64,000 bases of DNA from Gemmatimonadaceae bacterium (GTDB lineage: Bacteria > Gemmatimonadota > Gemmatimonadetes > Gemmatimonadales > Gemmatimonadaceae), in NCBI GenBank assembly GCA_020846935.1, contig JADLCY010000001.1:124001-188000 (forward strand). The letters are read 5' to 3'. Each line of letters starts with the position of its first letter. The stretch's first letter is position 1. Shown here piece by piece: positions 13,755-16,884 of this stretch. The position numbers and the translations under genes were made by a program. Below the pieces are notes generated by a model. It ran no database searches and was not told where the DNA came from. It saw only the letters and a list, made by a program, of their open reading frames with translations.

Positions 13755-13767
13755 GGGGGGGGGGGGG
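13755..13767. repeat. Poly-G tract (13 G), upstream of the protease lipoprotein gene
   Basis: Thirteen consecutive G on the plus strand (C on the coding strand of the protease gene), ending 19 nt before that gene's ATG and upstream of its Shine-Dalgarno. Homopolymers this long are unstable during replication. Here a length change would alter promoter or leader spacing. It is also a classic site for sequencing error. Confidence 0.95.
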
Positions 13768-15332: not shown

Positions 15333-16410
15333 ATGTCTGCGACCTTCCTGCCTCATGGTGCCAACTGCTGTAGCGCCTTTCGCCGGGCGATCGTGCTGTG
15401 GCCTCTGTTCGCGTCGTGCGTGCCTCAGCGCGAAGTACCAACGGGCCCAGGATCGCCGGAGGGCCCCGTCCACGCGGAACCCTTGGTGCTCAGCTTTGGG
15501 CTGCGATACCTGCCATACGGTGTCCCCGTGCCAGAGGGGACCAAGCTGGCAGCTGTGCCTGAGCCCTATTCCTTTGCGAGGCATGGAGCCGGCATCCCGA
15601 ACACGCAACCAGAGGCAAACATCGTTGAGCGACCCGGGTTCGTTCCTCCCCCACCGCCAATCGCCCAGGGAAGCGATAGCTACTGGCTCCGCATCATGCC
15701 GTCCACGCCGGCGCAGTTTTTCGGCATATCGCAGATCAATGACGCCCAGCTCTCGCTACAGCTCCCTGCGACCTCGGGTAGCACACGATATCTCTACGCG
15801 CCGACCATCCTGCCATCCGGAGGCTCCTGCGTTGAGGCAACGACATTGCATTCTCGCGCAGCCAACAGCACGACGGTGCACAGGCAGGGCTGGTACAACT
15901 GGTGCGTTGGACCCGCCGGCGCCTGGTGGGTGCAGGAGAACATGGACCCGACGTTTCAGTCGAAGTACGTGCGCCACTTCAACGGAGAGCTGGGGCTTCA
16001 TGTGTCTATCGTCACCCCGAACAATGGAAGCATGTACGGGGGCTGCTGGTACGGTCATCTCTACAACTTCAATGTCGGCGGCTGGGAGCAGAAGTTCAGC
16101 TACTGCGGCACAGGAACCGTCTACCTACCTCCCCCGCTCAACCCAACCTGGGGATGGACGGCCTGGGAGTCCTACAACCTGATCTCCGAAAGCTCGTGCC
16201 CGTCTGTGCAGGGCGTGCGCGCACAGGTCATTGTCCTAAACGTGTCTGCGACGGGGGGGGGCGCAGTTCCTTACGGATTTCCCATCGAACATCGGCGCAG
16301 GCTCGAGCTCCTCCCAGTGCTGGACCGGCTTGGGCGGCGCTCCGTACACGTTCATCTTTCCTTCGACGAGCATCCTCTCGACATGGCAGGCAGATACGCC
16401 TACCCAATAG
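15333..16410 (+). CDS. Secreted lipoprotein, frame-interrupted at a G9 tract (phase-variable or frameshifted)
   Basis: Starts at ATG 15333 with GAAGGG upstream. The signal has a basic stretch and the lipobox LFASC (Cys29). About 280 residues follow, rich in Trp, Tyr, Asn and Ser with several Cys (GGSCVEAT, YNWCVGPAGAWW, YGGCWYGHLY), typical of an exported beta protein. At 16253-16261 nine G occur; in the present frame translation continues as Arg-rich noise to 16502. With one G fewer, translation continues as a matching Ser/Thr/aromatic tail ending at TAG 16408-16410, which overlaps the Shine-Dalgarno of the next gene. I do not recognise the family. GC is lower than in the flanking housekeeping genes. 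Confidence 0.65.
16253..16261. repeat. Poly-G tract (9 G) inside a lipoprotein gene
   Basis: Nine consecutive G at the exact position where the coding frame changes. Eight G would join the upstream and downstream open frames. It is the second long G/C homopolymer within 2.5 kb. Confidence 0.95.
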
Positions 16411-16422
16411 GAGCTGGCAATC

Positions 16423-16884
16423 ATGTCGATACGTGGCCGTGGGCTCGGGAGAACCATTCTGCTCCTATGCAGCGCGCTTGCGCCGCTCTGCCTCTCGCTT
16501 AGCTGCAAGGGCACAAACGACGTGGCAATTGCTGATGGCAGCTACCCCCTGGCCACGGTGAACGGTAAGAGCCTGCCCTTCGACGAAGGCCCTGAGCCCC
16601 CACGTCCCGGTGCATCGGGTTCGTGCCACTCGCTGCTGCTGCGGGGAGAACTTCTCCTGCAGCGCGCAAACCAGACGTTCGAGTTCTGGTACGAACACGG
16701 GAGCACGTGCACTGATCGTACGCTTGGTCGCTCGGGAGCTACCGGTACCTATCGAGAGCTGGCGGGTGGCCTCGAGCTCGTGGCAGTCACTGGGCCCGGG
16801 CTGACGGAGACCTATCGAGCGAGTATCAGTCGGAACACCATCAGCGTCGCGAGCCGGTACTACAGCCTCGGCTTCGCCCGATAG
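16423..16884 (+). CDS. Small lipoprotein of unknown function
   Basis: 153 residues. The signal peptide MSIRGRGLGRTILLLCSALA ends at the lipobox LSLSC (about Cys28). The mature part contains SYPLATVNGKSLPF, a cysteine pair (SGSCHSL, STCTDR) and alternating beta-like segments (GTYRELAGGLELVAV). Start ATG 16423 has AGGAG nine nt upstream; that SD overlaps the corrected stop of the preceding lipoprotein (TAGGAG), so the two form one translation unit. Partners on the same membrane are likely. I do not recognise the family. Confidence 0.8.
   Translation: MSIRGRGLGRTILLLCSALAPLCLSLSCKGTNDVAIADGSYPLATVNGKSLPFDEGPEPPRPGASGSCHSLLLRGELLLQRANQTFEFWYEHGSTCTDRTLGRSGATGTYRELAGGLELVAVTGPGLTETYRASISRNTISVASRYYSLGFAR

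Follow-up and report, generated by a model that had tools for sequence, protein, structure and literature searches.

A nine-G run splits an exported-protein gene of a Gemmatimonadaceae bacterium between two reading frames, in a genome with candidate slipped-strand promoters

Homopolymeric runs are the switching elements of contingency loci in the open reading frames of Neisseria, Helicobacter and Campylobacter, and they can also act from within promoters, as in the slipped-strand promoter switches of the Neisseria genes porA and opc and of the Bordetella fim genes, where the run lies in the promoter spacer. Runs of G or C in a GC-rich genome have a described parallel in the poly-G/C tracts of Propionibacterium acnes (PMC4746626). 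As described for poly-A/T, a coding tract under selection for switching should lie towards the 5' end of the gene, and in Buchnera frameshifted genes still give in-frame mRNAs because the polymerase slips on homopolymers (both PMC2831843). A search of the open-licence literature turned up no homopolymer phase variation for the Gemmatimonadota. The locus considered here lies in a window of 64,000 nucleotides (the whole stretch of DNA that was analysed) from a Gemmatimonadaceae genome of 4.5 Mb in 15 contigs. It resembles the known contingency loci in that a run of nine G (G9) alters the frame of a gene for an exported protein, but differs from them in that the run was not found in relatives and is situated at the 3' end of the gene.

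The gene begins at ATG 15333 on the forward strand, and its upstream, correct-frame part (15333-16252) leads into the G9 run at 16253-16261, which has the length, about 8 bases or more, by which homopolymeric contingency loci in or near genes are recognized. As assembled, the same frame reads through the run into an Arg-rich, non-homologous extension (16262-16502) that ends at TAG 16500-16502, 80 nt inside the next gene, whereas the +1 frame past the run encodes a tail of 49 amino acids (16261-16410) ending at TAG 16408-16410. The in-frame alternative product is thus longer than the shifted-frame product and not truncated. The AGGAG Shine-Dalgarno sequence of the next gene (16409-16413) overlaps the stop of the tail, and that gene (16423-16884, forward strand, 153 aa, ATG 16423) encodes a small lipoprotein with the lipobox LSLSC. 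The start at 15333, the run, the stop TAG 16408-16410 and its overlap with AGGAG are as given in a preliminary description of the sequence, which had also called the first product a good lipoprotein. On this last point the signal is weaker than was stated, since the signal region RRAIVLWPLFASC contains an imperfect lipobox, LFASC, with F at position -3; the lipoboxes of the homologues (MLAGC, GLGAC and LLVAC) are good, and we regard the protein as exported and a probable lipoprotein.

At G9 one gene is divided between two frames. The long genes of the window served to train a codon-usage model, whose best frame changes at the run from 2 to 0, and a tblastn alignment with the homologue in the related genome G017 reaches through the tail only after the shift, the score rising from 134 to 147 bits with the tail portion CWTGLGGAPYTFIFP aligned to CWTGGGYSFITP. 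A read-through protein was constructed with CTAA and has a few altered residues immediately ahead of G9. Twelve homologues, the window sequence excluded, were combined in a profile, which scored 138.8 bits against the upstream part alone, 156.1 bits when the shifted tail was joined to it (a gain of 17 bits, matched by 0 of 1000 shuffled tails) and 141.4 bits when the in-frame tail was joined instead (a gain of 2.6 bits, matched by 69 of 1000 shuffles). The tails were scored in this joined form because a family profile was uninformative against the isolated tail, which gave 1.7 bits, below the best shuffles. In global alignments the shifted tail matched G017 with p = 0.001 and the homologue in G166 with p = 0.01, the in-frame tail remaining at chance level against all five homologues, and the near-invariant C-terminal Trp of the family (W351) sits in the shifted tail. 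Codon usage, tblastn and the profile therefore bear out the earlier proposal that the gene really continues in the +1 frame; it is this tail that relatives conserve, and the length of the run sets whether the conserved protein is in frame.

Homologues were found in four genomes of the same family as the window genome (G017, G045, G166 and G171) and in Longispora albida, with eight more in genomes sampled from the order of Longispora; among the named genomes with a homologue, the nearest are MAGs of Gemmatimonadetes, of which one carries the label Gemmatimonadaceae, and the gene was absent from four other genomes of the genus that were searched. Together with the window gene (15333-16410) the members recorded are L033, L094, L096, L097, L092 and L144-L151. 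In the four Gemmatimonadaceae homologues a gene for a small exported protein begins roughly 30 to 90 bp past the stop, as it does here, and the partner in G017 is the only one that was matched by sequence to the partner in the window. Because this close succession is kept in the relatives, and in line with the homology of the tail, TAG 16408 is, on these sequence comparisons, the ancestral end of the gene, as had been proposed from the overlap with the Shine-Dalgarno sequence. The locus is a two-gene unit in which a small lipoprotein follows a probable exported lipoprotein whose predicted beta-sandwich is glutamic-peptidase-like. A match of the small downstream protein to PEN-A was weak, far below the cut-off, and was discarded.

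Insights into the kind of protein that is broken by the run come mainly from its predicted fold. The protein had no significant sequence match in Pfam, NCBIfam or the PDB, including the neprosin model PF03080. A first structure model (mean pLDDT 46.8) was dropped, and more homologues improved the modelling: the AlphaFold2 model from 13 sequences has a confident core with blocks of pLDDT 80-92, a C-terminal tail below 50 and a mean of 58.6, which is moderate. When this moderate-confidence model was compared with known structures, five neprosin structures took ranks 1 to 5 (Z 8.8-9.3 over 183-209 residues, at about 12% identity), the best unrelated structure reaching 7.8, and in a Foldseek search the only match below 0.001 was scytalidoglutamic peptidase, with an E value of 4.4e-4. 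Invariant in the family are C166, E168, C191, W275, E279 and C289; the two Glu residues, invariant in 13 sequences, are 111 residues apart, and the catalytic pair of neprosin, E188 and E297, is 109 apart (PMC9343461). With aligned ranges of 113-347 on 132-369, E168 and E279 could pair with E188 and E297. The predicted beta-sandwich aligns best with neprosin (MEROPS G3), whose catalytic Glu pair is similarly spaced, and the eqolisins (G1) are represented by the Foldseek match. On the strength of the predicted fold and the two invariant Glu residues, our working assignment is a glutamic-peptidase-like exported protein of the neprosin/eqolisin type; membership in either family is not claimed, since PF03080 does not match and the Glu pair has been compared by spacing and aligned ranges alone. 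The analysis of the G9 locus points in this way to an exported protein family that has not been described so far, common to Gemmatimonadota and Actinobacteria, which from the model looks glutamic-peptidase-like. Without the last 49 residues, which lie beyond the second Glu, such a protein would probably fail to fold correctly, and the broken form, lacking the conserved C-terminal Cys and Trp, would be expected to lose its function.

That the frame break is genuine in the assembled sequence does not make it a switch, and the history of the run bears directly on this question. When the tract was compared in related genomes, as the preliminary description had advised, none of the five homologues examined had a homopolymer at the site (G166, for example, reads ACTGGTGGCGGCGAC), which suggests that the run arose in the lineage of the window. 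A string of G-rich codons at this spot is easily explained, since a Gly (G308) is conserved in the family at the site of the run. G9 occupies codons 307-310 of about 359. This is within the gene's last sixth, away from the usual 5' placement at which a change of frame abolishes the product, so that switching would leave most of the protein in place. Nor is the run surprising at this base composition: within the window, runs matching G8 number 8 against 3.9 expected, and as many were seen in 12 of 100 shuffles. Over 3.9 Mb of coding sequence, codon usage alone predicts from 58 (independent codons) to 107 (synonymous shuffles) coding G/C runs of at least 9, and the whole genome holds 19 on both strands, which indicates that long G/C runs are avoided rather than enriched.

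We consider the most likely cause, with a probability of about 0.7, to be a difference of one base in the length of the run that arose without any evolved switching. A spot that encodes the conserved Gly would have become a run of G in the lineage of the window, and the run length as assembled would place the last 49 residues out of frame, either because replication really slipped in the sequenced population or because the consensus is in error. The odds between these two are roughly even: homopolymers are where assemblies err, which makes a consensus error plausible, and a real slip is favoured by the lack of any other unexplained frame break in the rest of the 64-kb window and by two genes, one for a DUF1800 protein and one for a protein kinase, that have C9 in their coding sequence with the frame intact across a Pfam domain. 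The same intact genes, and the otherwise unbroken window, speak against a blanket mis-assembly at runs of this type; other apparent frame switches in the window were traced to overlaps between genes or to weak segments of short length. Neither the upstream frame nor the tail shows decay or a further stop, and both look conserved; the break would thus be recent or the gene still functional. An established pseudogene, with a fixed break in a decaying gene that can no longer encode its conserved C-terminus as assembled, is accordingly hard to reconcile with a single lesion on either side of which (in the codons before the run and the 49 after it) the sequence is still homologous and otherwise open, and we regard it as very improbable.

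A phase-variable gene, as the preliminary description had envisaged, would have slipped-strand mispairing toggle the C-terminus between folded and misfolded forms and perhaps alter the translation of the small lipoprotein downstream. In favour of such a gene are the presence of G9 in a gene for an exported protein, the intact coding on each side of it and the further poly-G/C runs that the same genome has in promoter spacers, upstream of operons for exported proteins; the frame break, the shifted tail and the end at TAG 16408 that the description reported all stand. The switching that it built on them fares less well, however, given that the run is absent from five homologues, lies at the 3' terminus and belongs to a class of runs of which composition alone predicts more than the genome has, and we think it unlikely. 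The full-length protein might instead be made by transcriptional slippage or ribosomal frameshifting at the run, possibly with both forms in a fixed ratio, for which polymerase slippage in Buchnera is a precedent; past the run the upstream frame does not soon reach a stop, which would allow both products. Yet the homologues, having no run here, offer no conserved recoding signal, and recoding at runs of G is less documented than at runs of A or T, which makes this origin of the protein improbable. Taken alone, then, G9 is a correctly spotted frame break at which selection for switching appears to be absent. Against the preferred reading of a one-base difference without evolved switching must be set the apparent slipped-strand promoter loci of the same genome, in view of which the organism may be under selection to switch by run length, the fact that the G9 gene likewise encodes an exported protein, and the conserved look of both the upstream frame and the tail.

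These promoter loci are the stronger finding. Three of the other long runs in the genome are preceded by a perfect TTGACA, and a pattern search located five loci with TTGACA followed by a run (G8, G9, G12, G8 and a run of eleven C) at G000:C1:242581, C2:359826, C8:9427, C11:342872(-) and C15:124140 (L055-L058, L060 and L099-L103); reversed control patterns yielded no loci in the same genome. The runs lie between TTGACA and a -10-like hexamer, scored with simple weights of our own making, at spacers of 15-20 bp: to the best hexamer these measure 17, 19, 19, 16 and 20 at the five loci, three relatives with the same arrangement (G026, L065; G028, L067; G160, L069) have 17, 18 and 15, and in three paralogues without a tract the spacer is exactly 17. 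All five loci of the genome have a gene of a six-bladed beta-propeller family (weak matches to PF17170 or PF15869 for some members) within 0.1-1.3 kb downstream. A small Cys-rich secreted protein is evident directly downstream at three of the five and likely at a fourth (the locus on contig 2), and a DsbA/Thioredoxin_4 gene was identified in between at two. Among 198 related genomes the forward G8 pattern occurred at about 23 distinct loci, not all of them upstream of exported proteins, and the reversed control at about 7.

By analogy with porA, opc and fim, which share with the five loci the position of the run within the promoter spacer, the arrangement looks like slipped-strand switching by way of spacer length. 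If confirmed, it would make slipped-strand phase variation known from a phylum whose members are for the most part soil bacteria that have not been cultured. The prior for a switch at G9 is raised somewhat by these loci, which do not thereby prove it. A single genome-wide poly-G/C system for the switching of exported proteins, acting chiefly from the promoter spacers of the peptide/DsbA/beta-propeller operons, with G9 as a coding member that toggles a C-terminus, seems to us quite doubtful.

Several further runs were noticed. Two propeller genes that had not been used in finding the family have runs upstream, a G10 at 0.61 kb (G000:C2:242360-242369(-), L123) and a G9 at 0.36 kb (C15:89840-89848, L134), which are not in a TTGACA spacer and possibly lie in a small upstream gene. 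On the minus strand an intergenic G12 (G000:C15:234949-234960(-), L054) precedes two beta-propeller genes of that strand by about 2 kb. A G20 at the very start of contig 1 (G000:C1:20-39, L039) might be an artefact of sequencing, or a long run at which the assembly came to a halt. Within the window a G13 on the forward strand at 13755-13767 reads as C13 on the reverse strand, where it precedes by about 20 nt the start (ATG 13735) of a subtilase (PF00082) lipoprotein gene; it is longer than G9 and a better candidate for the switching of expression. Two paralogues in the genome G002 of the same genus have a T11 run about 100 bp upstream.
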